61,837 nt of DNA from a virus, in the IMG/VR virus record IMGVR_UViG_3300028840_003061, positions 1 through 61,837 of that record; one strand, written 5' to 3'. How positions within the stretch are numbered: position 1 is the stretch's first letter; every line of letters starts with the position of its first letter. A program made the translations under genes and the position numbers. Positions 5,532 to 61,837 of this stretch are shown one piece after another. A model generated the notes under the pieces. That model saw only the letters and a program-made list of their open reading frames with translations, ran no database searches and had not been told where the DNA came from.

Positions 5532-5553
5532 ACTTTTTATTAAGGGAGAGAGG

Positions 5554-19734: not shown

Positions 19735-19747
19735 ATTTAATCTTAAA

Positions 19748-45808: not shown

Positions 45809-46438
45809 TTACGGAGTTACAGAGTTTTTACTCTCTGTAGTTTCCTCGGTATTAGCATCGTCGATGTATTTAAAGATATGATTTTTGTGTCGGGGTCTTT
45901 TACCTTTTATAACTGCACAAATTAAAGAGGGGTTAAACCCAAGCTCTTTTCCTTGAGTTGGATAATCTAAATAAAAGACATTTCCGGTCTTTTCGTTAGT
46001 ACACTCAACTTTTTTTGCTCCTAGTGTTCGAGATATTTTAATACGTTGTTCTTTAGAAATATGCCTTCCGTGTAGTTTTGGAATAACAGCACCCGTCTTG
46101 GTTTTACTGATTTTTTGACGTATTTCCTCTGACATATTAACGATACCTCCGCCGCCTTCCGTAAGATTGTAACCAAGTCCGAGATACGTATTGTATTTTT
46201 TTATGTACATACGTTCTTTGTTGAATAAATCTTCTTCTGATACAGCAGTATCTATCTCAATAATAGTAAAATTATCCTTACCGTACTTATGGATTGCTTT
46301 TTGTATAGCAGAGCGTTCTTTGTTAGCTCTATTTATATGACCATTAAAACGCTCTTCCAACGTCTTAGTTGTAACCCCAATATATTTTTTATTATTGATG
46401 TTATTTGTTATCATATATATTAAACCATACTTTTCCAT
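45809..46438 (-). CDS. GIY-YIG homing endonuclease (intron-encoded)
   Basis: A 209-residue enzyme read from ATG 46438. The GLIYMI...KKYIGVT pair (residues 5-23) is the GIY-YIG motif, with the catalytic Arg in LEERFNGHI and Glu in the KERMYIKKYN segment. Two NUMOD3-like units (MSEEIRQKISKTKTG and ISKEQRIKISRTLGA) and a C-terminal DNA-binding region follow. An in-frame GTG at 46486 falls inside the conserved intron core and is unlikely to be the start. It should cut intron-less capsid alleles and spread the intron. Confidence 0.9.
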   Translation of the reverse strand: MEKYGLIYMITNNINNKKYIGVTTKTLEERFNGHINRANKERSAIQKAIHKYGKDNFTIIEIDTAVSEEDLFNKERMYIKKYNTYLGLGYNLTEGGGGIVNMSEEIRQKISKTKTGAVIPKLHGRHISKEQRIKISRTLGAKKVECTNEKTGNVFYLDYPTQGKELGFNPSLICAVIKGKRPRHKNHIFKYIDDANTEETTESKNSVTP

Positions 46439-46444
46439 ATTATC

Positions 46445-46473
46445 ATTATACCTTAAAATATTTACAAAATCAA
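46445..46473 (-). promoter_or_regulatory. possible internal promoter for the homing endonuclease
   Basis: On the minus strand TTGATT (46473-46468), a 17-base spacer and TATAAT (46450-46445) stand just ahead of ATG 46438. Transcription would begin at or next to the ATG, implying a nearly leaderless message. Confidence 0.5.
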
Positions 46474-46548
46474 CATTAGCCTTCACCGATTTTGCGGAAT
46501 TTTCTTATACCCTGTTACCAGGATATCATGGCATAACTTTTAGTGTCT

Positions 46549-46728
46549 ACCATGCTCTAATTGAAGAACAACAGGTTGGTGGTATTGGTTGCCCAATCGT
46601 TTATCTTCTCCCCCAAAAGGAATCATGTTATAAAGCTTGACTCCATCAGGGATAATGTTTTGAATTTTACCGGCGTATTTTTCTTTAAACATGCCGTTTA
46701 AAGTTGACACCGTATTAGCAGTTGCCAT
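46549..46728 (-). CDS. major capsid protein, exon 1
   Basis: Exon 1 encodes the first 60 residues (ATANTVSTLNGMFKE, then YHQPVVLQLEHG) from ATG 46728, behind AAAAGGAT. Unspliced reading would add only Arg-His and stop at 46540. It joins exon 2 after splicing of the group I intron. It sits downstream of a possible terminator hairpin and late element in the 181-base gap to the scaffold gene, so the capsid gene probably has its own transcript. Confidence 0.9.
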
Positions 46729-46867
46729 TATTTATCCTTTTGTTAGAATTGTTATTAAAGTAATTATTTGCAAATGATCACATTTATAACTTTCCTACCG
46801 CATTGATACTTGCTGATCCGAGGGTACAGCGAGGTCTTTGGAGTGTACTAATTATGCGTAATCTGTA

Positions 46868-46881
46868 TGTAGTTGTTAAAA
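46868..46881 (-). promoter_or_regulatory. late-gene element TTTTAACAACTACA ahead of the capsid gene
   Basis: Minus-strand TTTTAACAACTACA stands in the capsid upstream gap. It directly follows a hairpin CGGTCC-AGAAAT-GGGCCG (46900-46883) that may terminate scaffold transcripts. The rest of the gap (46729-46867) is AT-rich with a second weaker TTTAATAACAATTC element close to the start. Confidence 0.5.
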
Positions 46882-46909
46882 TCGGCCCATTTCTGGACCG
46901 AATAGTGTA

Positions 46910-47893
46910 TTATCTAATTCCGTTCTTAAGAAAATCTTTAATAGATTGCTTCTTTGTTGGTTCGTCGGCCTTTGCAGTAACCTTACCAGTTTCTTTGGTT
47001 GCAGCAGTCTTAGGCATCTTCTTAAGTCTTTGTTTTCTCAAACGATCTACCGTTTTCTTGCCCAAAAATTGAATAAGATCATCATCAGACAATGAGTCTA
47101 AAAGCAATTGCTGCTCTTCCCGAATCTCTTTTTCTACGATAGGGACAACATCTTCCGCAGTAATATCCTCATACCCATTATCCATGAAACTAAGCATAGT
47201 GTTAGCGACTCTAGTTTGAACATACTCAGATTTAGGCAATTTAGTAGTTGCAGATAGTGCTTTATTGATAGAATCTTTAAGCTCAGACTCTGCCTCACGC
47301 TCTAAACGCTCCATCTCTAAGCGTTCCTGCTCTTCTTCCCGCTTTTTAAGCTCATCTCTTAGTTTTTGAAGTTCAGTATCCTTTTTCTCTTGCTCAATCT
47401 GTTCTGGAGACTTCTGCATTTCCTCGATTGCTCTTTGGATACGTTGTTCAGCAAGTTCATCGGGATTTAACCCCAACTCTTCTAAAACTTCCCAAGGATT
47501 ATCAGTTAAACGACTGATTTCTCTATCAAACACTTTTTCAAGTTCTGCAGACTTTTTCATAGCCTCTTGGCTAGCTTCCGCTAACTGCAACCTACGAATA
47601 ATATCATCTTTATTATTCCAATCCAAAGTAACTTCTTTTTCTTTTCCGTTAACTTTTAGCTTGAAAGTTTCAATAAGCTCTCTGACTTCTTCTTCTGAAG
47701 CCCCATCTTCGATAGCATCGCCAACAGCATCAGCAAGTTCTTCTTCTTGCTCTGCGCTCAATTCAGCGCCTTCTGCTGACTCTTCATCAGACAGCTCTTC
47801 GGACTCTGCTACTTCTTCTTGGATTTCCTGAGACTCTTCAGGTGATACGACTTTTTCTACTGCTTCTTCAGCAGCAACTTCTTCTGCACTCAT
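46910..47893 (-). CDS. capsid scaffolding protein
   Basis: A 327-residue, highly acidic N-terminus (Glu/Ser/Ala runs) followed by a long charged coiled coil and a basic C-terminal tail (RLRKQRLKKMPK). Position between portal and capsid, size and charge layout match T7-type scaffolds, which guide capsid assembly and leave the head. The start is ATG behind TAGGAGAAAA. Confidence 0.82.
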   Translation of the reverse strand: MSAEEVAAEEAVEKVVSPEESQEIQEEVAESEELSDEESAEGAELSAEQEEELADAVGDAIEDGASEEEVRELIETFKLKVNGKEKEVTLDWNNKDDIIRRLQLAEASQEAMKKSAELEKVFDREISRLTDNPWEVLEELGLNPDELAEQRIQRAIEEMQKSPEQIEQEKKDTELQKLRDELKKREEEQERLEMERLEREAESELKDSINKALSATTKLPKSEYVQTRVANTMLSFMDNGYEDITAEDVVPIVEKEIREEQQLLLDSLSDDDLIQFLGKKTVDRLRKQRLKKMPKTAATKETGKVTAKADEPTKKQSIKDFLKNGIR

Positions 47894-47942
47894 TTTTTCT
47901 CCTATGCATCGCCTTTTGGTAGATGCTATTAGTTGTCATCCC

Positions 47943-48254
47943 TTACGGGGTAGACTGTTTATATGAACAATTTACTCCAACTTTACGAGAGCTGTTGTCT
48001 CGTATTTCTTTTATAAACTCAACTCCTAGCGACTCAAGCCGACCTTTTATGTTTCTCTTAAGAACGTGAAGGTTATTTACCCCTTCTCCGCCAGTATAAA
48101 CTCGTTCGCTAGTTATGTTTTTAATCTTATACGTACAATCTTCGGTATTTATAAAAACCTTATACTTGGCTCCGTGTACAGAGCTTGTTAGATCTTTGAC
48201 AGATACTAAGATATTTGCGTCTTCTGTTTTCTTATATCTTATTCTAGTATTCAT
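47943..48254 (-). CDS. hypothetical protein between portal and scaffold
   Basis: A 103-residue protein with a mixed, basic sequence (VHGAKYKVFINTEDCTYKI). It starts in a TAATG overlap with the portal stop. Small genes occur at this point in many podoviruses, but I recognise no function. The gap to the scaffold gene carries a weak GACAACTAAT element. Confidence 0.55.
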   Translation of the reverse strand: MNTRIRYKKTEDANILVSVKDLTSSVHGAKYKVFINTEDCTYKIKNITSERVYTGGEGVNNLHVLKRNIKGRLESLGVEFIKEIRDNSSRKVGVNCSYKQSTP

Positions 48255-50335
48255 TACTGCCCGAACCTTTCTGTGGCAGTTAGGGGCATTCCATCTGGGC
48301 TTTCTGGAAGTCCTGCTGGTTGAGGTAGACTAGACTTTGGTGTTGCTTGAAGAGCGCCAGATTCTTCTGGCATAGGCATGGGAGCCCCTTCTCCTGGAGG
48401 TGGTGCCTGTCCTGCCCCTTGTGAAATAGTTTCCTGACTAGGAGGAGATCCTGCAGGAGGTCCCAAAGGTTGTTGCTGCATCATAGCAAGAGTACCAGGA
48501 TCAGTTGTTCTAAGTAAGTCGATGTGTTCTTGAATATGAGATAACACTCGGTCCACTAATTCAGGATCTTGTCTTAATTCTGGATCAGCTAAAACATTTC
48601 TATGCTCATTAATGTGATACTGATGATCATCGGTCATTATAGCGATAACACTAGTGGCTCCTGATGCCAGGGCTTCGTTTTCTGACCGGATTAACATCCC
48701 TTGATCGGCCATACCTTCAGTCATATTCTCAAGTCTACCCGTCTCCATCACGTTAACATATTGCTGAGGAGATAGCTTGTCTCCATACATCTGTAACATT
48801 TGTTCAGCCATTTGTACTCTACCCGCAGTAGAATTGGAGAGTGGGTTGCCAACATCGACTAATACTCTGTTTACTGTACTTAAGTCGTCTCCAGTAAACT
48901 CTTGTAGCTCAGTTCGGTTTGTTTTACCAACAATCGCCGCAACTCTGGGTACTGCAGCAAAATCTCTTAGCATATTAATAAGGCCCGTACCAACGTCTTC
49001 TATTAACTGTATGTATTGTTGTTGAAAACCAGATACAAATTGTAGTGCTTGTGCTTGAATAAGGGCTAATGCGTTACCAGAAGAAAGACTAGCTTCAGGG
49101 TTTCCTCTAGCAACAGAGTTAACGCCAGTTAAAGTCTCACCGATTTGTTCCAGCATCTGCATGAAATCAAAAATCTCTTTAGGAGTACTAGTAAGATTTA
49201 AAGATTCTGGTTTACCTGCTTGAGAGTTATAGTCAATTATATTCATTCCACCACTTAATTGATTTACATTAATATCGCAACCACGGGGATTTAGAATACT
49301 CTGTACTCCATGTGCGTTTTGGTTAGTCAATACAGTAGAGTATAAACTATTAATCGCATCTTGTACGGGAAGGAAGTCAAACATATTAGTATACCCATAT
49401 GGAGTTCCTAGTATGTCTCCAGGAGAGATTCTATATACTGGTAAATCTCTGTATGGCATGGGAGAGTCTGAAAGAGGGATATCATCATCTAAATAGATAA
49501 GATGTCTACCTTCTGGCATAGACTCGGTTCTTTTGTGAAAAAATTCGTACACAGGAATATCAACAGTTTCGTCGAAATTTGTACCGATTAGTTTGAACTT
49601 AGATAAATCGCTTTTTGTTTTAAGGTTAACAATTTCTTCTTCTAGCTCAGGGTATTTTGCTGCCAAATCAAACTTATTTTTCCAAGTTCTGGTAATAATC
49701 CAGTCAATATCTTTAATATCTTCTTTAGAGCTATCAAATACTACATCAAATACACTAAGATTATAAAACTTAACATCTCCTTCATATATAGGAGTTCCGG
49801 TTTCTTCATTGAAGTCGTACAACTCTCCTGAAGTTGCATTCCACTCCATCTTAATGTAACCAGAGCCCATAACAATTGCATACTCTGCAGCTCTATGGAG
49901 ATATTTCTCTAACCTATTTTCTCGCATATAATACTCTAAGAGTCCATTTGCAAGCTTGGTTTGTACTAAAGATTTATAGTCTGTGTTTGTTGACCTAGCC
50001 CGAAAGCTAGGTCGATTTGATGTGACCATCACCAAAATATGTTGTGCTAAGTTTCTAAAGTGATTAATTGGCAACTCTACGAGTTCACCCTGCTCACCTC
50101 CAAACGTAATCGAATGACCGCCACCAACATCATCATAATACGCACCATGATGTGCAAGCCAGCATCTTTTAACCTTTTCGAGGTAATTATTATTAGTAAG
50201 AGTATCGAACCATGCATCAGATTTTTGTTTTAAAATCTTAGCCGCTTCTTTAGCCTCTTTTTGTGCAAAATATTCTGTAGTATCTTGGTCTGTTAGTGGG
50301 TTAGTTCCAACAGACATCCCTAAATTATCAGCCAT
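48254..50335 (-). CDS. portal (head-to-tail connector) protein
   Basis: A 693-residue portal. The N-terminal half shows AHHGAYYDDVGGG and LPINHFRNLAQHILVMVTSNRPSF, with DWIITRTWKNKFDLAAKYPE further on, matching large podovirus portals. The C-terminal 100 residues are Pro/Gln/Gly-rich. Length is larger than T7 gp8 (536) but usual for the SIO1-like group as I recall it. It forms the dodecameric DNA channel. It follows terminase with a late element in between. Confidence 0.88.
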   Translation of the reverse strand: MADNLGMSVGTNPLTDQDTTEYFAQKEAKEAAKILKQKSDAWFDTLTNNNYLEKVKRCWLAHHGAYYDDVGGGHSITFGGEQGELVELPINHFRNLAQHILVMVTSNRPSFRARSTNTDYKSLVQTKLANGLLEYYMRENRLEKYLHRAAEYAIVMGSGYIKMEWNATSGELYDFNEETGTPIYEGDVKFYNLSVFDVVFDSSKEDIKDIDWIITRTWKNKFDLAAKYPELEEEIVNLKTKSDLSKFKLIGTNFDETVDIPVYEFFHKRTESMPEGRHLIYLDDDIPLSDSPMPYRDLPVYRISPGDILGTPYGYTNMFDFLPVQDAINSLYSTVLTNQNAHGVQSILNPRGCDINVNQLSGGMNIIDYNSQAGKPESLNLTSTPKEIFDFMQMLEQIGETLTGVNSVARGNPEASLSSGNALALIQAQALQFVSGFQQQYIQLIEDVGTGLINMLRDFAAVPRVAAIVGKTNRTELQEFTGDDLSTVNRVLVDVGNPLSNSTAGRVQMAEQMLQMYGDKLSPQQYVNVMETGRLENMTEGMADQGMLIRSENEALASGATSVIAIMTDDHQYHINEHRNVLADPELRQDPELVDRVLSHIQEHIDLLRTTDPGTLAMMQQQPLGPPAGSPPSQETISQGAGQAPPPGEGAPMPMPEESGALQATPKSSLPQPAGLPESPDGMPLTATERFGQ

Positions 50336-50348
50336 TATTACCTCTTGA

Positions 50349-50360
50349 TATAGTTGTTAA
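50349..50360 (-). promoter_or_regulatory. late-gene element TTAACAACTATA ahead of the portal gene
   Basis: Minus-strand TTAACAACTATA overlaps the terminase stop and lies 14 bases before the portal start, next to the AAGAGG ribosome binding site. Confidence 0.5.
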
Positions 50361-51814
50361 TTCTTAATATTCATTATTTTTCTAAACATAGACTCAATTC
50401 CGCCTTCAGCTTTTTTGCTTATTTTAGACGCAAATACGTTCCCTCCGGATTTTGCTCCCCAATTCTCCGGATAAGGGTTGTGAGAACGGACCAAATTACG
50501 CACTAAATAAATAAGCGCATCAAGGGCATCTGCGTGTCCTCCTCTAACTGTCATATCTGCAGAATCAGCCATTCTAGCAAACTCTTTGTGGTTTTTATCC
50601 CAAGACCCATTAGCTACGTGGTATATTAAATGTTTACACCGAGGATTAATTATAATTTGATTATTACTAATCATCATACGTACTTGGTTTATCTGAGCTT
50701 CTTTATTATCTTTAGCCGTTGCCAGGAAGTTAAGTCCATGAAGCCTCTGTAAATCATTTACCATAATTAAGTTATTATCCATAACCCGCATATACACAGG
50801 TAAAGGGTATCCACTGTCATCTGAAAAATGTTCGGATTCTTTTTTATATATGTTATTAGCTAGAGCCTCAGTTGTCATACTAGGGCCATTCATAACTAGT
50901 TCATCTTCTATAACCAACTTGGCGTTTAAAAAATCCCAGTAAGCAAATAAATAAATAGTTAGATCTTTAAACCCTACATCCCCTGCTGTATATATATCGT
51001 AAAATGCCGGTCTATCCCATTCACGGATTAATTCCTGTTGCCTCTCTTCCGTAAATTCTGGTATCACTACTGATTCGTCATCTTGTATTATTTCGCAAAG
51101 GTATTCTCTTTTAAACTGAGGATCTTCTTTTCCTGTTGGAAATCTTGCTGCAATCCCTTCTATCTTTCTCTCGCTTAACATTGGGTTGTCATATATGTTT
51201 AAAACCAGAAGAGAGTCTGCAGCTTTCGCTGGTCTTATAAACTTAGTGATAAAATCGTGGTTAGCACTTTTAGATGGGGTTGATATTAATACGATCTTAC
51301 CATCAGTAGTATCTGTAGTTGGAGCAAGAATAGAATTTACAACATACTCTAAGTGGTCACAGAAACCGGCCTCATCTACTATGCATAGATGTGATGCGCC
51401 CCCTCTAAGATTCTCATGGGAACCATTATCTGTTCCCGCAAATTGTATTTGAGAACCGTTCGGAAAAACGTACATCTTGTCATTTTCTTTCCATTCCGGT
51501 CTTAGATCCCTAGGACAATCTTCTAGTATGACTCTCATGTTTGGTTGAACAATTGTCTTTACCATCTTTAAACGAGGACAAACATATTTTACAATTGCGT
51601 TGGGAGTAGTCATACAAAGCTCGACAGCTTCTACAGTCATCTCAAAACTTTTTCCCAACCGTCTAGATGCTAGTATAGGGATTATATCCCGTTTATCTTT
51701 TAATATATAGTCTCGCATTTTGAGCTGGCCATCATGTCTCTTATAACTAAGATCTCCCCTTGACCATATCTCTCTTAATGCTTCTCTTTTTGAGACTTTT
51801 CTGCGTCTAGCCAC
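50357..51814 (-). CDS. terL: terminase large subunit
   Basis: A 485-residue packaging ATPase-nuclease. Walker A is ASRRLGKS (about residue 52), Walker B is LCIVDEAGF, and the coupling motif is VLISTPS. The RNase H-like nuclease has its Asp in YTAGDVGFKDLTIYLFAYWD and its last Asp in GGHADALDALIYL. The start is GTG overlapping the small subunit's context, 2 bases after its stop. It packages DNA through the portal. The phage ends cannot be judged from sequence; the circular closure fits headful packaging. Confidence 0.93.
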   Translation of the reverse strand: MARRRKVSKREALREIWSRGDLSYKRHDGQLKMRDYILKDKRDIIPILASRRLGKSFEMTVEAVELCMTTPNAIVKYVCPRLKMVKTIVQPNMRVILEDCPRDLRPEWKENDKMYVFPNGSQIQFAGTDNGSHENLRGGASHLCIVDEAGFCDHLEYVVNSILAPTTDTTDGKIVLISTPSKSANHDFITKFIRPAKAADSLLVLNIYDNPMLSERKIEGIAARFPTGKEDPQFKREYLCEIIQDDESVVIPEFTEERQQELIREWDRPAFYDIYTAGDVGFKDLTIYLFAYWDFLNAKLVIEDELVMNGPSMTTEALANNIYKKESEHFSDDSGYPLPVYMRVMDNNLIMVNDLQRLHGLNFLATAKDNKEAQINQVRMMISNNQIIINPRCKHLIYHVANGSWDKNHKEFARMADSADMTVRGGHADALDALIYLVRNLVRSHNPYPENWGAKSGGNVFASKISKKAEGGIESMFRKIMNIKN

Positions 51815-51816
51815 AT

Positions 51817-52167
51817 CTATCCTTTGAGTATGTCTTCTAGTTCTTTAGTTGACATTTTTTTAGCCTTACCTTTTGGCTTGACCCGGATATCTTCGCCCCT
51901 TGCTATTTTTAGATTTTTATGTAATATATCTAAAGTCTTAACCTCATCCTGAGTTAACTCTCGTTTTGAAGAGTGTTCTTTTAGTATCTCTAGTTGTTTT
52001 ACGCAAATAATTTCAGCATCAGTTACGCTATCAGAAGATGCCGACTCGTCTATCTCCTTTAATAGGAGCTTTAGCTTACTTACTTCCAATTCAAGCTCTT
52101 TTATTCTTTTACGTAAAGCAGACTTTTCTGCTTGTTCCTCTAAAGATATTAGTGTTTTATCATCCAT
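51817..52167 (-). CDS. terS: terminase small subunit-like protein
   Basis: A 116-residue, mainly helical protein upstream of terL. A coiled coil (ALRKRIKELELEVSKLKLLL) is followed by RELTQDEVKTLDILHKNLKIARGE, similar to a conserved stretch in small terminases, and a basic tail. It should recognise packaging start sites. The call rests on position and that stretch. Confidence 0.7.
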   Translation of the reverse strand: MDDKTLISLEEQAEKSALRKRIKELELEVSKLKLLLKEIDESASSDSVTDAEIICVKQLEILKEHSSKRELTQDEVKTLDILHKNLKIARGEDIRVKPKGKAKKMSTKELEDILKG

Positions 52168-52170
52168 GTA

Positions 52171-52470
52171 TTACCACCCAAACTTTTGTCCATCTACCCT
52201 AGGTTTAGATTGACTTAATAGAACGCTAGATACTTTTGCGTCTAGTTTATTATAAACTTCCCGGTTATTCTTCTCATAAGTCTCTAACTTTCTTACGAAT
52301 TCGTCAGACGGATCGTCAATTTCATTGTGATCAAGATATACCAAAAACCCAAATAGGACGCTAGATGACACAAATGCGGCAACTTCAAACGACCCTCCAC
52401 CAAAAATAAGACTCTTTGTTGATATAATTAAAATAAGAAAAAACAAGATGTTAGATTTATTAATTGACAT
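52171..52470 (-). CDS. small membrane protein, first gene of the virion operon
   Basis: A 99-residue protein with two hydrophobic segments (about residues 8-20 and 25-45) and a soluble helical C-terminal half. It is the first minus-strand gene, behind a late element and GGGAGA. Holin-like or virion membrane roles are possible; nothing is diagnostic. Confidence 0.6.
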   Translation of the reverse strand: MSINKSNILFFLILIISTKSLIFGGGSFEVAAFVSSSVLFGFLVYLDHNEIDDPSDEFVRKLETYEKNNREVYNKLDAKVSSVLLSQSKPRVDGQKFGW

Positions 52471-52500
52471 TATTTAGTCTCCCAAGGTGTATTAAAGTAT

Positions 52501-52515
52501 AAATTAGTTGTTAAA
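52501..52515 (-). promoter_or_regulatory. late-gene element TTTAACAACTAATTT
   Basis: Minus-strand TTTAACAACTAATTT lies 31 bases ahead of the first virion gene. The divergent gap also holds a GTGTATTAA site (52487-52495) and the plus-strand promoter at 52527. Confidence 0.55.
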
Positions 52516-52526
52516 TTAATTTATTA

Positions 52527-52555
52527 TTGTACTTTGATGCCTTTTGTGTTATATT
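52527..52555 (+). promoter_or_regulatory. sigma-70 promoter for the gene at 52583
   Basis: TTGTAC (52527-52532), a 17-base spacer and TATATT (52550-52555). It diverges from the virion operon. Confidence 0.7.
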
Positions 52556-52582
52556 AATAAGAATTAACCGAAAAGAGGGTAT

Positions 52583-53029
52583 ATGTCAGAAAATGGTATG
52601 GGGTCTAAGGAGATTGTCGTAAAGTTATATTATGATATAACTATGTGTAATAATGAACTAGATCTACTTAAAGTCAATTCTAAGATAAGACAGCATATAG
52701 AAGGAGATGATTCAATTGGGGAGATTGAGACCATGATACTTCTAAGTGCAATCAAAATGAAGAGCAACGAGATAGCTCTTTATAATATAATGGATACTAT
52801 GGATACGCTGCTTCTTGCCAACGATATATCAGTTGTTATGTCCGATGAGAATTTTGACATAGAAGAAGAGGCAATTAAACAAAGTATGACGGATGAACTA
52901 AGTGTAGTCAAAGAAGGCAACATAATGTCTATAAGTGACGTATACTCTCGTAAGAATGGTGGCGATGATCTAGAAGAATCGTCGGGCGAAGATGATGAAA
53001 ATGCACCAGTTGACAGTGGTGACGAATAG
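52583..53029 (+). CDS. acidic hypothetical protein
   Basis: A 148-residue acidic protein starting at ATG behind AAAGAGGG. The first 75 residues are helical (LYYDITMCNNELDLLK), the C-terminal 30 almost all Glu, Asp, Ser and Gly. It is alone between the virion operon and the lysis cassette with its own promoter, and a promoter for the lysis genes lies inside its last codons. The acidic tail recalls DNA mimics or regulators, but that is only a possibility. Confidence 0.65.
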   Translation: MSENGMGSKEIVVKLYYDITMCNNELDLLKVNSKIRQHIEGDDSIGEIETMILLSAIKMKSNEIALYNIMDTMDTLLLANDISVVMSDENFDIEEEAIKQSMTDELSVVKEGNIMSISDVYSRKNGGDDLEESSGEDDENAPVDSGDE

Positions 53030-53037
53030 TGCTATGA
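53009..53037 (+). promoter_or_regulatory. sigma-70 promoter for the lysis cassette
   Basis: TTGACA (53009-53014), a 17-base spacer and TATGAT (53032-53037). The gap to 53165 also holds TGTGG/CCACA (53080-53100) and an ATGTGA/TCACAT inverted repeat with a 10-base spacer (about 53110-53131), which may be an operator or hairpin. Confidence 0.85.
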
Positions 53038-53165
53038 TAGTTATGGATTTATTGCCCCTTTTGTCACTATAGTTGAGGTGTGGGTAGTAAAAAGCCACAA
53101 ATATAGAAAATGTGATAATTAAGCGTCACATAGGAACTAATATAATAATAGTAGAGGAGTAAAAG

Positions 53166-53561
53166 TTGGGACTTTTTGATTTTATTGGAAATATTTTTAA
53201 GCCAGCCTCAGATTTAGTAGATTCATTACATACTAGCGATGAGGAAAGGTTAAAATTGGAAAATGAGTTAGCTAAGATAAAAGAAGCGGCTCTAGAAAAA
53301 ATGACAGAATTAGAAAAGGCTCGACTAGATGCCCTAAGTAAGGTGCAGGTGGCAGAGGCTAATTCTAAACATACAATTGTTGCTATCTGGAGGCCAGTAT
53401 CGTCTCTGTCGATGGTTGCGATTATAGTTGCAGCTAGTTTTAATTTAATCCCTACCCCAAGCCAAGAGTTTTATGAATTAGCTCAAATATTCTTAGGGGC
53501 TTACGTTTCTTCGAGGGGAATTGAGAAAGTTGCCGCAAGCATTGGGGGGTTGAGGAAATGA
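53166..53561 (+). CDS. holin of the 3TM/GTA type
   Basis: A 131-residue protein starting at TTG behind GAGGAGTAA. A Lys/Glu coiled coil (20-60) leads to an S-x-WRP motif (IVAIWRPVSSLS) and a hydrophobic C-terminal half with two or three membrane segments. This is the layout of the holin-3TM family found in gene transfer agents and phages. It should make the inner-membrane hole that starts lysis. It is the first gene of the cassette with the M15 peptidase. Confidence 0.8.
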   Translation: MGLFDFIGNIFKPASDLVDSLHTSDEERLKLENELAKIKEAALEKMTELEKARLDALSKVQVAEANSKHTIVAIWRPVSSLSMVAIIVAASFNLIPTPSQEFYELAQIFLGAYVSSRGIEKVAASIGGLRK

Positions 53562-53812
53562 AATACATAACAGAGGTACTACTGGTTGCTAATTTATTGA
53601 TATGCGGATACGCTTATTATAAAGTATATAGTGTATTAAATGTTGTGGATATGGTTACTAAGCAAATAATTGCTGTTGATAACTCGACTAAAGATATTAA
53701 GGATAAGCTAAAAGCTGCGGAAAAATCATCTCAGGAAGCAAAGGACGGAATAAAGAGGGTAGAAACTACTATAGATGAAATTAAGCGTAAACTGGATAAA
53801 TTGCCGTTATGA
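53558..53812 (+). CDS. membrane-anchored coiled-coil protein, i-spanin candidate
   Basis: An 84-residue protein with an N-terminal membrane segment (TEVLLVANLLICGYAYY) and a Lys/Asp/Glu coiled coil for the rest, the plan of Rz-type inner-membrane spanins. It lies between holin and endolysin, overlapping both (ATGA, TTATGA). No paired o-spanin is embedded; the small lipoproteins at 55876 and 56094 are possible partners. Confidence 0.6.
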   Translation: MKYITEVLLVANLLICGYAYYKVYSVLNVVDMVTKQIIAVDNSTKDIKDKLKAAEKSSQEAKDGIKRVETTIDEIKRKLDKLPL

Positions 53813-54156
53813 TTAGGATATTATTTACTGCATTACTATTATATGGGTACTTGTCTTATGCTACTCCTGTAGATATTGATAATACTGTAAAGGAACTAGA
53901 ATCCCTTTCAGGATGCGAATTGGTCATTACATCCGGATTTAGGACTCCTGAACATAATAAACGAGTGGGAGGGGCTCCTAACAGCTATCATCTATATAAT
54001 AGAGCTAGAGATGTGGTACCAAAAGACAAAAAATGTATAAGTATTAAAGAGTTAGGGAAGATTGCATGTAAAATAACCTCCTCTATCATATACAAAAAAC
54101 ACATCCATCTCGATAACCGTAAGAATCCTATATGTATTAAAGGTAGATATAAATGA
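53809..54156 (+). CDS. M15 peptidase endolysin with signal peptide
   Basis: A 115-residue protein. Residues 1-18 (IRILFTALLLYGYLSYA) look like a signal sequence or signal-anchor. The M15_3 core follows: TSGFRTPEHNKRVGGAPNS-YH-LYNRARD, with zinc His and Asp in the usual S-x-H-x6-D spacing, and a late HIHLD His. Such enzymes cut the peptide stems of peptidoglycan (D-Ala-D-Ala or L-Ala-D-Glu). The Gly usual in the zinc motif is Asn here. It is shorter than many but complete. Confidence 0.82.
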   Translation: MIRILFTALLLYGYLSYATPVDIDNTVKELESLSGCELVITSGFRTPEHNKRVGGAPNSYHLYNRARDVVPKDKKCISIKELGKIACKITSSIIYKKHIHLDNRKNPICIKGRYK

Positions 54157-54656
54157 CTAAATACGTAATAACGGCAAATAGCCGAAGATTTGATAATTTC
54201 AAAAGTAAAAACAAGGGATATGAGCATATTATATGTATACGAGATGTAGTATTACTCAGAGGCTTGCAGTTTAATCCTGAAACGGAAAAAATTATATTTC
54301 TTAGTGATTTTGATAAAATATACGGCTCAGAGAATCTTGAGGCCACTCTCCGTAGCATAGGGTATGACGGGAGAATACCTCCGCTAAGTTTGCCGGATTA
54401 CTCTGTAACCAGTGTTAATATTGAGCCGAGCCCTTTTACTTTAGATATACATAACCTTTCGACAAATACAGCATATATAGGGAGTGATTCATATTACAAT
54501 ACAACCGTAGAAATCCCCCTATACTATGAAATATTGCGAAGTGAGGTCAATAACTTACGTCAACAGATTATAGAAATGCAGCAATCACAAGCAATTTCGC
54601 CCTTAGTTATAGAGAGCCCCTTTATGCCAACATCCGGCGAGTCTGATGAGGAATAA
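54153..54656 (+). CDS. hypothetical protein
   Basis: A 167-residue protein overlapping the endolysin stop by ATGA. The first 80 residues look like a small alpha/beta domain (EHIICIRDVVLLRGL, then KIIFLSDFDKIYG). The middle is Ser/Pro/Tyr-rich and the end acidic. It belongs to the lysis transcript by position. No function is recognised. Confidence 0.6.
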   Translation: MTKYVITANSRRFDNFKSKNKGYEHIICIRDVVLLRGLQFNPETEKIIFLSDFDKIYGSENLEATLRSIGYDGRIPPLSLPDYSVTSVNIEPSPFTLDIHNLSTNTAYIGSDSYYNTTVEIPLYYEILRSEVNNLRQQIIEMQQSQAISPLVIESPFMPTSGESDEE

Positions 54657-54680
54657 AAAAAAATGGGAGCTTGCGCTCCC
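54656..54680 (-). terminator. terminator for the minus-strand cassette 55634..54731
   Basis: GGGAGC-loop-GCTCCC (54665-54680) with a run of eight T on the minus strand. On the plus strand the hairpin is followed by TTAAAAG, so it works mainly for leftward transcripts, though it may also slow rightward ones. Confidence 0.88.
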
Positions 54681-54730
54681 TTAAAAGTATGTGGTCGGAC
54701 GACCATGCGAATGCTAACATACTAGAACTA

Positions 54731-55099
54731 TTAATATTTTTTATAACCAGACATATCTTCGTCTTTGGCTATTCCTTTTCCAATTTTAATTTTCTTTAAA
54801 GCGCGTTTTCTAGCTTCAGCGCGTTTACGCTTCTCCTCTTTTTCCTTTTCTTCGCGTTCTTTTCTTTTAGCTTCTGCTTTTTCTACATAGGCTTTCCTGA
54901 CAGAATCTTCTCTCGCGAGACGGCTCTCGCTAGTTTTGTAGCTAGTCTTTACCCCTGGGCGCATCTCTTTTTCTACCGCTTCATCGCCAGATTTAGGATT
55001 AACTAAACGCCTCTCTCTACTAGCTTTAACCTCTTCTAGAGCCCTATCATATTGATAATCTTCGCCTTTTTTTGGTCTTTTTCGTCCGTATCTACCCAC
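54731..55099 (-). CDS. highly charged basic protein
   Basis: A 122-residue protein, mostly Lys, Arg and Glu, with an uninterrupted charged helix (about residues 68-105) and a short GKGIAKDEDM tail. Such proteins are often nucleic-acid-binding or disordered. It lies 11 bases after the exported protein gene. The function is unknown. Confidence 0.6.
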   Translation of the reverse strand: MGRYGRKRPKKGEDYQYDRALEEVKASRERRLVNPKSGDEAVEKEMRPGVKTSYKTSESRLAREDSVRKAYVEKAEAKRKEREEKEKEEKRKRAEARKRALKKIKIGKGIAKDEDMSGYKKY

Positions 55100-55110
55100 T
55101 TATTACCCTC

Positions 55111-55410
55111 TTAAAAGTTTATTTTTATAACCACTAATACTTCATTTCCTGATACGTTTACAGTACTCACTGAGCCATACATGGAGAAATCGTACTGTAA
55201 CCTTCCGCTAGATATAATATCGACTAAACTATAAGTATAAGCAGCATATTCTTTGTTAATACCAGTAATTCTTAGTATTTTCTCTGCTTTTTTTTCTGCC
55301 TTATCCGCAATCTTAGTCTTAGATAGGCCCTCATATAGTTTATCAAGTGCTTCATCAGCAAAAGCTATATTAGTTGTTAATAGAAGGGCAATGGGGAGTA
55401 AATACCTCAT
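55111..55410 (-). CDS. exported small protein
   Basis: A 99-residue protein read from ATG 55410, overlapping the upstream stop by ATGA; an earlier in-frame start at 55452 lies inside the neighbouring gene. Residues 1-18 (RYLLPIALLLTTNIAFA) form a clear signal peptide with cleavage before DEALDK. The mature part is helical, then beta (STVNVSGNEVLVVIKI). A periplasmic role is likely; no family is recognised. Confidence 0.68.
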   Translation of the reverse strand: MRYLLPIALLLTTNIAFADEALDKLYEGLSKTKIADKAEKKAEKILRITGINKEYAAYTYSLVDIISSGRLQYDFSMYGSVSTVNVSGNEVLVVIKINF

Positions 55411-55634
55411 TTTTCTTCGTCCTTCAGAATATAGTCCCCATGTTTTGGGCAATCGTGATCGTGTAAGTTATTAGGAATACCGAACACAGAGTCCGATCCG
55501 CATATACATTTCTTCTCCCAAGGCTGAATTTGACGCATCTTAACCTTCTCCCCTAGATACCCAGGAGGAAGTTCTACGTTATCGTCATCATCGTACCATA
55601 CTCTCTGATTTACATTTCCAAATATACTAGGCAT
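55407..55634 (-). CDS. small protein with possible zinc site
   Basis: A 75-residue protein with an Asp run (WYDDDDNVELPPGYLGE) and a Cys/His cluster (CICGSDSVFG, HDHDCPKHGDY) that could bind zinc. It heads the minus-strand cassette, behind an AAAAACAACTAGT element (55689 to 55677) similar to the late motif. The function is unknown. Confidence 0.6.
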   Translation of the reverse strand: MPSIFGNVNQRVWYDDDDNVELPPGYLGEKVKMRQIQPWEKKCICGSDSVFGIPNNLHDHDCPKHGDYILKDEEK

Positions 55635-55720
55635 AATTACTACCTTACCATAAAAAAAGTTAAAATACTACCTTGTACTAGTTGTTTTTCTGTGGTAGTG
55701 TATTATTTATTGGAGGAAAA

Positions 55721-55879
55721 ATGAATAGATTAACTGTAAACGCATTATTGACAATAGCTGCTATTTTCTCAGCAGACCTACTTTTCTTTTTTATGGGGCT
55801 ATCAGTTCCCGGACCGCTTTTTCAATTACTAATGTTTGTTGGGCTGGTCAGTGTATTACAATTTATGGAGCTGTCATGA
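55721..55879 (+). CDS. small membrane protein
   Basis: A 52-residue protein read from ATG 55721 behind TTGGAGGAA; the frame is open further upstream without a ribosome binding site. Two hydrophobic segments are separated by a short GLSVPGP turn. An AGTGTATTAT site (55697-55706) lies in its leader. It overlaps the lipoprotein gene by ATGA. Unknown role. Confidence 0.6.
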   Translation: MNRLTVNALLTIAAIFSADLLFFFMGLSVPGPLFQLLMFVGLVSVLQFMELS

Positions 55880-56097
55880 AATTTTTAGTATTTTCTCTTT
55901 CTTTACTTCTGGTTGGCTGTGGCCCGAAATTTAGCGTGGGCGACAGGGTTTATTTCTTCAGTAGCTGCACCGGCATAGTAAAAGAAGTTATCCAGTGGTC
56001 CGAGGCAGTCTCATATAGGCTGGACCCCGCAATATGCGACCTAGAGCCGATTAAACCCGTAGTTATGCCCCAAAAAGCCCTGAGGGGCTCACAGTGA
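55876..56097 (+). CDS. small lipoprotein, copy 1
   Basis: A 73-residue protein with a lipobox (LLLVGCG, Cys at residue 15) after a short signal. The mature part reads KFSVGDRVYF, then SCTGIVKEV, a small beta domain. A related arrangement (KFTTGDVITN, FCTGTVVDI) is in the next gene, so the two look like diverged copies. The DNA here is clearly more GC-rich than the surroundings. Phage lipoproteins can block superinfection at the envelope, a role to consider but not shown. Confidence 0.7.
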   Translation: MKFLVFSLSLLLVGCGPKFSVGDRVYFFSSCTGIVKEVIQWSEAVSYRLDPAICDLEPIKPVVMPQKALRGSQ

Positions 56098-56360
56098 GGT
56101 TTTTACAGTTAGGTGCTGTCTTTCTATGGCCAATCATCTTGGGCTGCTCTACGGCTCCCACAGGACCTTATACTAACCATAAGTTCACGACTGGTGATGT
56201 TATAACTAACGGATTCTGCACAGGAACCGTTGTAGATATCTTTAATTTCAGTGTCTTAGACGAAAATAGATACAAGGTAAAAGACGTTAAGTGTACTAAC
56301 GGAAAGGAGTATTATTATGCAATTTTCGGAGAAAACGGATTTAGAAGAGTTAGCCGATAA
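56094..56360 (+). CDS. small lipoprotein, copy 2
   Basis: An 88-residue protein starting at GTG in a TGTGA-type overlap. The signal ends in IILGCST, a lipobox with Cys near residue 18. The mature part shares the layout G-D-V/R-x...C-T-G-x-V with copy 1 but is longer and ends basic. It is more AT-rich than copy 1, so the two have different recent histories despite being adjacent. Confidence 0.7.
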   Translation: MRFLQLGAVFLWPIILGCSTAPTGPYTNHKFTTGDVITNGFCTGTVVDIFNFSVLDENRYKVKDVKCTNGKEYYYAIFGENGFRRVSR

Positions 56361-56541
56361 TATACGCAACTATCTAGAATCTTTAGAACATTCTGAAATA
56401 GAACATCTCCTTGCTGCTTTAATTTCTGGTCATGGAGTGCCATATAAAGCCAGAGGCTTAGGTATTATGGCGGCAGATGTTGATTTTTATTTAAGAACTG
56501 GATATATAAACCCTAACCAAATGGAGATTATTAAGAAATGA
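56317..56541 (+). CDS. hypothetical helical protein
   Basis: A 74-residue protein starting at ATG within the end of the lipoprotein gene, behind GGAGTATT. It is helical (LADNIRNYLESLEHSEIEHLLAALI) with a GHGVPYKARGLG turn. It overlaps the next gene by ATGA. No family is recognised. Confidence 0.55.
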   Translation: MQFSEKTDLEELADNIRNYLESLEHSEIEHLLAALISGHGVPYKARGLGIMAADVDFYLRTGYINPNQMEIIKK

Positions 56542-56831
56542 ATGCGGAAGAGGCCAGAAATAACGTGGCGACTTATATGAGAGCCCAAGAAAAGGAATTA
56601 GATACCAGAAAGAAACAAATGTTGGTTGCTATTTTGGATATTATTTCTAATAAATCTTGCAATGGGTATAGTATTATCACCTATGTTATAGACGATAAAA
56701 TGAAAACATTTTCTAAAAAACATAAGAAACTCGCTATTGATTTTTTAGAACATAACCTAAACGGCTTAGGTTTTACTGTAAAATGTCAACTTTCTATTAA
56801 CAAAGATAATGTCTTGGTCATTGAGTGGTAA
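56538..56831 (+). CDS. hypothetical protein
   Basis: A 97-residue protein with a helical N-terminal half and a beta C-terminal end (TVKCQLSINKDNVLVIEW). It overlaps the metalloprotease-like gene. Unknown function. Confidence 0.55.
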   Translation: MNAEEARNNVATYMRAQEKELDTRKKQMLVAILDIISNKSCNGYSIITYVIDDKMKTFSKKHKKLAIDFLEHNLNGLGFTVKCQLSINKDNVLVIEW

Positions 56832-57207
56832 ATATGGAATGGTACTACGAAAAGGTAACACTCAAGTATGCATAGATACTAGAATTATAACAATGTCTCC
56901 ATGCTCAAAAAGAAACTATCGACTATTCCTATCATATTTGTTCCACGAATTAGCTCACATTACCTGCGCAGACTCTGGACTTTATCATAACTACCACAAT
57001 GTAGAACCAACCAATTCTAAAGAATTACAGACATTTAGACGAGTAGCTTTTAAAGCGGAAAGGTTTGTAGACAAGAAAGCAGAGGAATTAATGTCCGTAT
57101 ATTTCCCGGATATCCCGTTTAGAGAGAATTATACCGAAGACGATAAGTCTTGGTTTTATATGATGTTTTTAGATAAATATTACAAAAAGGATAAATTCAA
57201 TGCATAA
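56809..57207 (+). CDS. putative zinc metalloprotease (HELAH)
   Basis: A 132-residue protein with FLSYLFHELAHITCADSG, an HExxH zinc motif about residues 46-50, followed by HNYHNVEP, a possible third ligand region. This recalls SprT- or WLM-like small metallopeptidases. There is no signal peptide, unlike the lipoprotein at 9227. The start is uncertain: ATG 56809 overlaps the previous gene, and an in-frame ATG at 56839 is also possible. Neither has a strong ribosome binding site. Confidence 0.65.
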   Translation: MSWSLSGKYGMVLRKGNTQVCIDTRIITMSPCSKRNYRLFLSYLFHELAHITCADSGLYHNYHNVEPTNSKELQTFRRVAFKAERFVDKKAEELMSVYFPDIPFRENYTEDDKSWFYMMFLDKYYKKDKFNA

Positions 57208-57715
57208 AGATAGAAACATCAAGTTAACCCCTATACCAGGTTTTGAGAAGGAGTATGCTATTACTAAATGTGGTCAGATATGGTCATATTTTAAAAATGA
57301 CTGGAAAATGTTAGAGAATCTGAATGGTTATCGTAGAGTCGGTTTGCACAAGAATGGTAAATTACATCGTATTTTAGTACATCGCTTAGTTATGTTGACT
57401 TTTGTTGGAGCGTCTAATTTACAGGTTAATCATATAAACGGCATTAAAAATGATAATAGACTAGAAAATTTAGAATACGTTACTATATCCGAAAACTTAA
57501 AACATGCGCACCGCATAGGGTTGCGGATTAATAGAAAAGGAGAACTTAATGGTGGGCACGTATTAAAGGAGCAGCAAGTATATAAAATAAGGTTCGAAGA
57601 AACATCTTCATTAAATTCTATTGCAAAAAAGTACGGTGTCAGTAAAAAACTTATATTTAATATAAAACATGGTAAGGCATGGACTCATATAACAGAGGAT
57701 TTCTATGATAACTAA
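57200..57715 (+). CDS. HNH homing endonuclease with NUMOD4 and HTH domains
   Basis: A 171-residue protein: NUMOD4-like start (LTPIPGFEKEYAITKCGQIW), HNH core (LHRILVHRLVMLTFVG, then VNHINGIKNDNRLENLEYV) and a C-terminal HTH (LNSIAKKYGVSKKLIFNIK). It is inserted in the operon with overlaps on both sides and closely resembles the enzyme at 60204. It is probably a free-standing homing endonuclease. Confidence 0.88.
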   Translation: MHKDRNIKLTPIPGFEKEYAITKCGQIWSYFKNDWKMLENLNGYRRVGLHKNGKLHRILVHRLVMLTFVGASNLQVNHINGIKNDNRLENLEYVTISENLKHAHRIGLRINRKGELNGGHVLKEQQVYKIRFEETSSLNSIAKKYGVSKKLIFNIKHGKAWTHITEDFYDN

Positions 57716-58436
57716 AGATAAATATGGGGCGTTGTCCCAAATTCAGCCAGACGGGACCTTGGAAGGGGGGGATTCTGCTGTGTGGACAGGGCACTACCTA
57801 TACCTCACTGGTGAGAAGTACCCCTTCGTAGAGACTTTTGAAGTAAAACCAGGGGCTTATGTGCGCCACCCCGATCCTAAAATGACCAATAACGGCTTTG
57901 GTGCATATTACAAGCATCCTTGGGCTGGGTGTATCTCCCGCGACCAGCTAACAGGCATCATCGCCGGTTTAATAAGCCAAAAGAAGCGCCTATCCCTGTT
58001 AAGGCTGATTATACATCACGGGTTTAGGTTATTTTTATTTTCATATAACACTATAGATAACGGAAAAGACCCAGACACCGCTGCCTGGAAATTTCCAGAT
58101 TTAACTCTTTTTGATATATGGTCAATGTATTTACGAGGTTTTGGTATTCTTTCTTTTTTATTTTGGCCAATTTTATGCGTCCTAGACCTTCATCTACTGT
58201 TAAACACGATACATGTAAATAGAGACGGTGATGATGACCAAATTAACTATGCGATAAAACTCTTTATTGCTGTAGAACACGTTCCGACTCCAACAAGTAA
58301 ACTATCTTTTAGTTTACTAAATAAGTCCTCTCTTTTAAAAAAAATACATAATTACTGGTGTGGGTGGAGGAATAACTGCGACATGTACTATTTATACTTT
58401 AATAAATTCAAGGAGTTGCGTAATGTCAGCAAGTAA
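57705..58436 (+). CDS. mosaic protein: conserved N-terminal domain and membrane-associated C-terminus
   Basis: A 243-residue protein. The first 95 residues (GALSQIQPDGTLEGGDSAVW, then CISRDQLTGIIAGL) are encoded by DNA much richer in G+C than the rest, with codons unlike neighbouring genes. The remainder is AT-rich, with two hydrophobic stretches (LIIHHGFRLFLFSYN and ILSFLFWPILCVLDLHLLL). The composition break suggests that this gene was acquired from, or recombined with, a different genome. I recognise the N-terminal type as conserved in phages but know no function. Confidence 0.6.
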   Translation: MITKDKYGALSQIQPDGTLEGGDSAVWTGHYLYLTGEKYPFVETFEVKPGAYVRHPDPKMTNNGFGAYYKHPWAGCISRDQLTGIIAGLISQKKRLSLLRLIIHHGFRLFLFSYNTIDNGKDPDTAAWKFPDLTLFDIWSMYLRGFGILSFLFWPILCVLDLHLLLNTIHVNRDGDDDQINYAIKLFIAVEHVPTPTSKLSFSLLNKSSLLKKIHNYWCGWRNNCDMYYLYFNKFKELRNVSK

Positions 58437-58875
58437 AAAAGAGGAGAAACGAGATTCTAAAGGTAGGATTCTTAAAAAAAAGAAGTGTATTAAATGCGGA
58501 AATATATTTGAAGCTCCTGCTGGAGGCAGGAATAGTTGTTGTTTGAGAACTAAAGAAAGCAAGACCCGTCCTAAAATAAAAGAGGCTCACAGTAGACATT
58601 TAATATACAAAAGAGACGGGTATTTGTGCTATTATTGCGGCATTCACCTCTTTAATGTGAACTCATCTCAAATAACCCTAGATCATGTTTATCCGCAATA
58701 TTTAGGCGGAAGACATACTGCCAGCAATTTAGTAACATCGTGTCTTGCTTGTAATAATAAGAAGCAGGCTACAATTGATGTCGATCGTATAAACGAAACG
58801 CTAGAGGACGTAAACCGAAGAAATGAGACTTTTGGGATTCCTTCTAATAAGAAGATAAATACTACAAGCTCCTGA
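58423..58875 (+). CDS. HNH endonuclease
   Basis: A 150-residue protein read from ATG 58423 behind AAGGAG. A Cys4-type zinc knuckle (CIKCGNIFEAP, CCLR) precedes the classical HNH: IYKRDGYLCYYCG, TLDHVYPQYLGGRHTASNLV and CLACNNKK. This is the McrA-like HNH with two CxxC pairs, a different class from the neighbours at 57200 and 60204. It may be a homing or anti-competitor nuclease. Confidence 0.85.
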   Translation: MSASKKEEKRDSKGRILKKKKCIKCGNIFEAPAGGRNSCCLRTKESKTRPKIKEAHSRHLIYKRDGYLCYYCGIHLFNVNSSQITLDHVYPQYLGGRHTASNLVTSCLACNNKKQATIDVDRINETLEDVNRRNETFGIPSNKKINTTSS

Positions 58876-60203: not shown

Positions 60204-60746
60204 TTACTCGTCTTTCCAGGAGCGGTTATTTACAATGTCTGCTATGGTAGCTTTTGATACTCCGTACTTTTCTGCTAACTCCCCATAAGTAGAGCCACCT
60301 TTTTTCTCTTCTCGGATACTTCTAGCCTTGTTTATGTTGAGTTTTGAGCGTCGAACTTTTTTTACTGTCCCCAAAACCTCCACCGAATGTCGGTAGTTTT
60401 CTTTCTGCGTCACTAACTCTAGGTTAGATATATGGTTGTTTAAGGTGTCCCCGTCTATGTGGTTTATAACCAAGTCTTTCTTTAAGTCTCCTTTGAATTT
60501 CTGATAAACAACCCTATGTAACGTTAATTTCTTATATTTATACTGCACATGAACACGAGTTCTCGGGTCTTTCTTAGTCTTTTTTAAATGGTGAGTTAGC
60601 TTTCTCCAAAACCCTTTGGTGCTTCTCTTACCTGTACGCTGGATAATTGTGTATATAGTTCCGTCTTCTTGTATATGGTAGTCTGGGTCCTGGCATAACT
60701 GCCGCACTAAGTCGTCGTTTGTTGCAATCAATTTACCTGATCTCAT
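60204..60746 (-). CDS. HNH homing endonuclease with HTH domain
   Basis: A 180-residue protein starting at ATG behind AAAGGAGG. The HNH core is KKLTLHRVVYQKFKG, then VINHIDGDTLNNHISNLELV, followed by a C-terminal HTH (TYGELAEKYGVSKATIADIV). It shares this plan with the enzyme at 57200. The upstream 60780..60803 carries a second pair of AGTGTATTA sites. Confidence 0.88.
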   Translation of the reverse strand: MRSGKLIATNDDLVRQLCQDPDYHIQEDGTIYTIIQRTGKRSTKGFWRKLTHHLKKTKKDPRTRVHVQYKYKKLTLHRVVYQKFKGDLKKDLVINHIDGDTLNNHISNLELVTQKENYRHSVEVLGTVKKVRRSKLNINKARSIREEKKGGSTYGELAEKYGVSKATIADIVNNRSWKDE

Positions 60747-60803: not shown

Positions 60804-60872
60804 CTTATTATATTCTTTTTTAAAAATTTGTATATTATAGAGTGTATAATGTTAATGATTTCAAGCACATAC

Positions 60873-60908
60873 GCTCTGGGTGTCCGGAGCCGAGTTCTTC
60901 TTTTTTTT
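60873..60908 (+). terminator. terminator shielding the sigma-54 promoter array
   Basis: GCTCTGG, a GTGT loop and CCGGAGC form a 7-bp stem (one G-U; 60873-60890), followed after CGAG by TTCTTCTTTTTTTT. A GGGGTACCCC palindrome (60910-60919) follows directly. Confidence 0.65.
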
Positions 60909-60922
60909 AGGGGTACCCCCCC

Positions 60923-60938
60923 TGGCACGCTTCTTGCA
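60923..60938 (+). promoter_or_regulatory. sigma-54 promoter 1
   Basis: TGGCACGCTTCTTGCA matches the sigma-54 (RpoN) consensus TGGCACG-N4-TTGCA at every fixed position, with GG and GC at the required -24/-12 spacing. Transcription would begin about 11 bases downstream, near 60949. Confidence 0.85.
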
Positions 60939-60963
60939 ATAGCAAAATCCATACCAAAACCGT

Positions 60964-60979
60964 TGGCACAAAAAATGCA
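60964..60979 (+). promoter_or_regulatory. sigma-54 promoter 2
   Basis: TGGCACAAAAAATGCA keeps the full TGGCAC and the invariant GC with exact spacing; the first T of TTGCA is A. It is 41 bases downstream of promoter 1 in a direct repeat. Confidence 0.75.
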
Positions 60980-61005
60980 ATAGCAAAATCCATACCAAAA
61001 ATCTC

Positions 61006-61021
61006 TGGCACAGAAATTGCA
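61006..61021 (+). promoter_or_regulatory. sigma-54 promoter 3
   Basis: TGGCACAGAAATTGCA keeps TGGCAC-N5-TTGCA exactly. It is 42 bases downstream of promoter 2, the third unit of the tandem repeat. Confidence 0.8.
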
Positions 61022-61197
61022 ATCCTATTTAATACTCCACAGATCTCCACCACCGTCTAGGCTCTAAACACTGACCAAAAGTTCAACACCTACTTAACTT
61101 CCCGGAACCACTAAACAATTCTCACATTCTCATTTTGCTATACAGAAGTTCGACAGTCTTCAGTACTCTTCAGTAAGTGATTCCAGTTACTTACGTT
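61022..61197 (+). other. G-poor leader between sigma-54 promoters 3 and 4
   Basis: 176 bases without a gene. The plus strand is notably poor in G up to about 61140. Near the end CTTCAGTA occurs twice (61157-61177) and GTAAGT/ACTTAC forms an inverted repeat (about 61173-61194) just before promoter 4. These are candidate binding sites; no enhancer-protein site is recognised. Confidence 0.4.
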
Positions 61198-61213
61198 TGG
61201 CACATCGAATGCA
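61198..61213 (+). promoter_or_regulatory. sigma-54 promoter 4
   Basis: TGGCACATCGAATGCA keeps TGGCAC and GC at exact spacing. It is the promoter nearest to the first early gene, with a predicted start about 50 bases before ATG 61273. Its flanks are unrelated to the tandem repeat. Confidence 0.75.
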
Positions 61214-61272: not shown

Positions 61273-61647
61273 ATGTATACAATTAAAGAACTAAAACAAG
61301 AGATCAAGTCAAGCCGTCAGGATGCCTTAGAGGCTCGTCAAGCGATTAAAGCAATCGAATCAATGCAAGAGTCAAGAACTAAGAAAAGTCTCCTTAGAGA
61401 CGCTACTAGACGCTTAGAGAGAGCGTTAAGAGACTTAAAGAGCTTTAAGGAAGAGTTAGCAGCTCTAAAACAGGAAAATGTATACAAGCCAGACTTCGAC
61501 CTTTGCTATAACTCCAGGAAGTCTTTAAAAGTTCACTTGTCCAACTTAGTTGCCACATTCGGAGAAGAGTTAGTCCGAGACATGATAAAGGAAGTCAAAC
61601 TCCATCGTAAACCTAGAACTAATAAACCCCAAACAAAGGCGGCCTAA
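61273..61647 (+). CDS. coiled-coil protein, first gene of the sigma-54-driven operon
   Basis: A 124-residue protein starting at ATG behind AAGGGAGA. Residues 1-75 form a strongly charged coiled coil (SRQDALEARQAIKAIES), then a short globular stretch (VHLSNLVATFGEELVRDMI) and a basic tail. It is the first product expected after infection if the sigma-54 array drives the early arm. No family is recognised; a host-takeover role is only a guess. Confidence 0.7.
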   Translation: MYTIKELKQEIKSSRQDALEARQAIKAIESMQESRTKKSLLRDATRRLERALRDLKSFKEELAALKQENVYKPDFDLCYNSRKSLKVHLSNLVATFGEELVRDMIKEVKLHRKPRTNKPQTKAA

Positions 61648-61648: not shown

Positions 61649-61837
61649 ATGCCAGTAGAGCAAATAGAATATTATAAACTACGCATTATCGCATTGATGG
61701 ACCGAATCGAGGATGAAACCGGAAATCTCTTAAGTGAGATTCCGGGACTTGACTCCATTGAGGATAGATTCTGGACTTCACTAGATAGAGGCTACGAACA
61801 AGCCTTAATGTGCATCCACAATGAATTATGTAAAATA
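61649..61837 (+). CDS. N-terminal part of a small hypothetical protein (gene cut by the window ends)
   Basis: ATG 61649 follows the previous stop by one base and the frame stays open for 63 codons to the end of the window, finishing on a codon boundary. It continues in frame at positions 1-99. The product is mostly helical (YYKLRIIALMDRIEDETG). No function is recognised. Confidence 0.65.
   Translation, partial: MPVEQIEYYKLRIIALMDRIEDETGNLLSEIPGLDSIEDRFWTSLDRGYEQALMCIHNELCKI

Follow-up and report, generated by a model that had tools for sequence, protein, structure and literature searches.

A row of RpoN-type sites ahead of the inferred early operon of a phage, and similar rows in many unrelated phages, point to a possible role of sigma-54 in starting infection

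The window, that is the whole stretch of DNA analysed here, is an IMG/VR virus record of 61,837 bases (IMGVR_UViG_3300028840_003061, positions 1 to 61,837), which is classed as linear and encodes a podovirus-like phage with a P22/SU10-type portal, a large terminase, a family A DNA polymerase, a DnaB-like helicase, an ERF annealing protein, Thy1, and a dUTPase. Close to its right end, between an HNH endonuclease gene and a rightward operon, lies a group of sites resembling the binding sites of the alternative sigma factor RpoN (sigma-54). The features of this region are the following:

60204 to 60746, minus strand: divergent neighbour of the array, HNH endonuclease (phrog_59, E 1e-30)
60807 to 60834, minus strand: sigma-70-like promoter pointing away from the array (TATACA-N16-TATAAT; 10 of 12)
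60873 to 60908, plus strand: weak terminator-like hairpin (60873-60890) followed by U8 (60901-60908)
60909 to 60920: GGGGTACCCC palindrome with a C run, directly before site 1, function unknown
60923 to 60938, plus strand: RpoN-type site 1, TGGCAC-GCTTC-TTGCA
60935 to 60959, plus strand: first copy of a 25-nt direct repeat (spacing 41)
60941 to 60956, minus strand: weaker opposite-strand site TGGTAT-GGATT-TTGCT, convergent with site 1 (2 bp between)
60964 to 60979, plus strand: RpoN-type site 2, TGGCAC-AAAAA-ATGCA
60976 to 61000, plus strand: second copy of the 25-nt direct repeat
60982 to 60997, minus strand: weaker opposite-strand site TGGTAT-GGATT-TTGCT, convergent with site 2
61006 to 61021, plus strand: RpoN-type site 3, TGGCAC-AGAAA-TTGCA
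61198 to 61213, plus strand: RpoN-type site 4, TGGCAC-ATCGA-ATGCA, with a predicted start near 61224, 49 nt before the ATG
61273 to 61647, plus strand: first gene of the operon to which the array points (124 aa, no PHROG family)
61649 to 61837, plus strand: second gene of the operon, cut by the contig end 190 bases into the gene

Sites 1 to 3 form a tandem with starts 41 and 42 bp apart, while site 4 stands alone 192 bp after the start of site 3 and 75 bp before the ATG at 61273. Sites 1 and 2 sit in a 41-bp direct repeat of which 25 nt are identical, and because the opposite strand of the same repeat carries the weaker site, these two units are convergent pairs with two bases between them. 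The first-pass annotation had described four TGGCAC-N5-(T/A)TGCA sites on the plus strand with exact GG-to-GC spacing and no further site of this kind in the window, and this observation is confirmed and even stronger than was claimed. When spacers of 0 to 11 bases were searched on both strands, the only TGGCAC/WTGCA combinations in the window were these four with N5 on the plus strand, against 0.033 expected on both strands from base composition, and the related TTGCW pattern averaged 0.02 in shuffled sequences. Chance can therefore be rejected. GG and GC lie at the fixed spacing of the RpoN pattern TGGCAC-N5-TTGCW, although sites 2 and 4 have an A for the first T of TTGC. Bases that were not used in the original claim also fit the RpoN consensus, given that position -27 is C, T, C, T and position -20 is G, A, A, A in the four sites, which corresponds to 8 of 8 at these two positions.

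The array had also been placed behind a terminator, but the candidate is only moderate. It consists of a 7-bp hairpin with U8 ten bases later (z -1.2), and was not listed by the scan that gave the leftward sigma-70-like promoter, which leaves it undecided whether it is a terminator. The best sigma-70-like candidate in the region of the leftward promoter has p = 0.027 in a second analysis. To the right, between the array and the gene at 61273, no sigma-70-like promoter was found (p = 0.90). No known RNA element was found in Rfam, and there are no tRNAs. Three HNH endonuclease genes (57200-57715, 58360-58875, and 60204-60746) crowd the region before the array, where the nearest relative has only about 1 kb compared to about 4 kb in the window.

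This nearest relative, here called G001, has 87,126 bases, is syntenic with the window (PolA 59%, portal 71%, and TerL 68% identical), and begins about 0.56 kb before its own array. An alignment of related phages had been suggested beforehand as a check on whether the boxes are kept while the N5 is not, and for three of the four sites this is what we found, in this one relative only. The three tandem sites of G001 at 559, 599, and 639 (CGGCACACTTCTTGCA, TGGCACACTTCTTGCA, and TGGCACACCAATTGCA, corresponding to sites 1, 2, and 3, the first T of the site at 559 being changed to C) follow the same GGTACCCCCCC, with the boxes kept and the five spacer bases changed. An element equivalent to the opposite-strand site at 60941-60956 is also present. 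Site 4 is not conserved. The same comparison shows that the window is a fragment lacking about 29 kb between its end and its start, so that the operon ahead of the array is a block of about 30 kb, which ends in recombination and replication genes in G001. That this operon is early is inferred from this layout and was not measured. The array is not shared by the wider group, because PolA relatives at 46-48% identity have no strict sites, and the Silvanigrella phage with the nearest cultured terminase has no array. A second contig of the same phage (99.98% identical) covers only 44972-56860 of the window and does not reach the array, and a relative with 40% portal identity (12.5 kb) has no site.

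The first-pass annotation regarded the arrangement as a rare way to gate infection, which is not supported, because it is a recurrent phage architecture. A double site (N5, 15-45 bp apart) hits more than 120 IMG/VR contigs, whereas the same search with an N6 spacer gave 3 hits and the reversed pattern gave 0. The three N6 hits were inspected and look like coding or low-complexity repeats, though no frame was translated. A stricter triple array occurs in 59 viral contigs but only once in 84,980 bacterial and archaeal genomes. This one contig is binned in a Sphingobacteriales MAG, without it being established that this is its host, and carries genes beside the array that we read from their translations as terminase-like and portal-like, so it is a phage. 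A search of 395 genomes of one phylum returned only the same phage contig. An ordinary bacterial architecture is therefore rejected. After removal of near-duplicates about 95-105 arrays remain, with GC contents of 29-64% and 2 to 16 sites each. The densest array seen is in contig IMGVR_UViG_3300005253_000655 at 18550-19736, with sixteen RpoN-type sites on one strand, fourteen of them within 514 bp, and it is present in a further copy. The literature searched, in which most subscription journals were not represented, gave no description of such arrays.

In 246 distinct array sites, positions that were not imposed by the search follow the preferences of RpoN. Position -20 is a purine in 99% (G 70%, A 29%) and hardly ever a pyrimidine, position -27 is T or C in 80%, position -17 is T in 68%, and position -15 is T in 96% where the search had allowed A or T. 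That unrelated phages share these bases argues for a common host factor and against a phage protein. The alternative, that the repeats are recognised by a phage protein such as the small terminase subunit at a packaging site, a replication initiator, or a repressor, and resemble RpoN sites by chance or mimicry, is the least likely of the explanations considered. It could draw on the 51 of about 119 loci in which the array adjoins a small-terminase-like gene, and on the palindromic units, which are common. However, the same bases and spacing appear in unrelated phages, no RpoN-like DNA-binding domain was found encoded in 49 virus records, and in the window the array does not adjoin the small-terminase gene, the terminase being at 50-52 kb and far from the array.

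Neither RpoN nor its activator seems to be supplied by the phages. A PF00158 activator was found neither in the window nor in 49 array phages, RpoN was not found in 49 virus records, and there was no RpoN family among the 25 window families shown. Many of the records are fragments, so that absence is no proof. The proposal that the phage itself activates the sigma-54 system has therefore no support.

Arrays lie mostly between divergent operons. In the 51 loci mentioned above the array lies in the divergent gap beside genes that we read as small terminase, M15-type peptidase, large terminase, and portal. Direct arrays, with sites on one strand only, point away from the terminase operon in 17 of 19 cases, but these loci are partly related and the count overstates independence. 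The next gene downstream is co-directional in 82 loci against 26, based on rough gene calling, and the orientation counts are not phylogenetically independent. Sigma-70-like promoters pointing outward from the array are enriched on both flanks (29 of 99 and 30 of 92 at p<0.05) compared to wrong-strand controls (7 of 99 and 4 of 92). Adjacent sites on the same strand pile up at 25-29 bp, and 42 of 95 distinct arrays have sites on both strands, with convergent pairs mostly 17-24 bp apart, which cannot all be open complexes at once.

Smaller clusters are present in cultured phages. BLAST with an array consensus found Pakpunavirus phages of Pseudomonas aeruginosa and about 300 Vibrio phages, as well as single sites in others. 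In Pakpunavirus PS3, seven of nine sites fall into two clusters (64303-64473 and 77215-78084). In the T5-like Vibrio phage VCPH all five sites of the 120.5-kb genome lie within 2.9 kb (116851-119751) beside genes annotated A1 and A2-A3, and a further near-matching convergent pair is visible in the same gap. A1 and A2 are pre-early genes in T5. In Pseudomonas phage SYP a convergent pair lies just upstream of a TTGACA-N16-TATGAT sequence resembling a sigma-70 promoter. These are clusters and pairs and not the long tandem arrays.

The interpretation given in the first-pass annotation, that the phage ties its early genes to a host sigma-54 regulon (motility, nitrogen, stress, or cell-cycle phase) through four promoters that are fully silent without a signal, is only partly supported. 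The sites are RpoN-type elements, three of the four are conserved, they are oriented toward the operon, and no other promoter for this operon was seen. However, it has not been shown that all four are working promoters, given the missing conservation of site 4 and the dense packing and convergent pairs of related arrays, or that the operon is fully silent without a signal, because in many array phages sigma-70-like promoters face the same way, or which host activator would act. The most likely function is activator-dependent early transcription, a view that we hold with no more than even confidence. In this view the array is a cluster of binding sites for the host's sigma-54 RNA polymerase at the promoter region of the early operon. 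The sequence analysis itself demonstrates that the sites exist, that they match RpoN preference beyond the positions searched for, that three of the four are conserved in synteny, that they recur in many phages, and that they point toward the operon opposite the terminase genes, whereas the binding, the transcription, the activator, and the host are inferences. Recognition by host RpoN is very likely, although binding was not assayed, no transcript data or mapped 5' ends were at hand, and no host could be assigned to the window phage, so that RpoN in the host is assumed. The RpoN holoenzyme would bind as closed complexes, and a host enhancer-binding ATPase already active in the cell would open one of them, so that transcription of the early operon is added to, or in this phage possibly replaces, sigma-70 transcription. 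We identified no activator among the phage genes and no upstream activating sequence, and with an unknown host these observations do not decide whether an activator is available. Several sites would raise the chance that a scarce holoenzyme is captured by the incoming genome, and dense or convergent sites need not all fire. The site nearest to the gene at 61273 would give a 49-nt leader. The polarity, the place, and, in the window, the lack of another promoter favour this view, and the clustering of all sites of phage VCPH beside the A1 and A2-A3 genes and the -24/-12 promoters annotated as high activity in phage YuA also speak for it.

The main rival is a sigma-54 sink, which we regard as possible but less likely. 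The array would then hold host sigma-54 holoenzyme in stable closed complexes and starve the host's sigma-54 regulon (motility, envelope, stress) as genome copies multiply, while transcription from it would be unimportant. Sigma-54 closed complexes are stable and cannot open without an AAA+ activator (PMC7057263). The dense packing, the convergent pairs, the up to 16 sites in one region, the near-absence from bacterial genomes, the lack of an encoded activator in the phages searched, and the separate sigma-70-like promoters serving the operons in many phages are all in agreement with a sink. Bacterial genomes hardly use such arrays, so the arrays may do something that ordinary promoters do not. 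However, a sink requires neither the constrained orientation nor the location of many arrays at one kind of place, the border of two operons, and in the window no other promoter for the operon was seen. It is also conceivable, but unlikely, that sigma-54 holoenzyme bound in the array acts locally as a repressor, roadblock, or insulator between two divergent sigma-70 promoters and so sets their timing. The outward-facing sigma-70-like promoters on both flanks and the arrangement in phage SYP would fit, but the right-hand side of the window, where no such promoter was found, does not, and where present the sigma-70-like promoter often lies 150-250 bp from the array. The evidence does not rule out a more far-reaching view, to be taken as tentative only, in which tandem and convergent RpoN-site arrays are a virus-specific device of many unrelated tailed phages, a multi-copy trap at the early-gene border that captures the host's sigma-54 polymerase for the phage and withdraws it from the host regulon. 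Sigma-54 transcription is treated as a host stress, nitrogen, motility, and envelope system that phages largely ignore. A virus-specific array of its binding sites at early promoter regions, recurring across genomes of 29-64% GC and present in smaller form in cultured Pseudomonas and Vibrio phages, would mean that many phages read or rob this system at the start of infection, and it offers a sequence mark for predicting hosts that have RpoN.

The individual -24/-12 promoter is known from bacteria, with the same TGGCAC-N5-TTGCA geometry, -20 purine, and -27 pyrimidine, and what differs here are the tandem and convergent arrays of 2 to 16 sites. The record of Pseudomonas phage YuA (NC_010116) annotates three -24/-12 promoters as high activity, but these are single sites that match the consensus poorly and are located in the structural region, and are neither arrays nor early. 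PAK_P1-like phages (Pakpunavirus) have repeated promoter-like elements in the early region (PMC4309531), but the published repeats are of the sigma-70 type, and we found no mention there of the RpoN-type sites seen here in phage PS3. The link between phage and sigma-54 system proposed for gp2 of Pectobacterium phage Q19, a putative sigma-54-like protein (PMC7693777), rests on a weak protein similarity (HHpred E 0.67) and not on a DNA array. Apart from the array, the early block of G001 contains repeated paralogous small genes with a FLNGxxHRxDGPAxEYADG repeat (4097-6812). In the window, two ClpP-like proteases (14162-14785 and 18443-19312) lie in the replication-side block, away from the head genes where such phage proteases usually sit.
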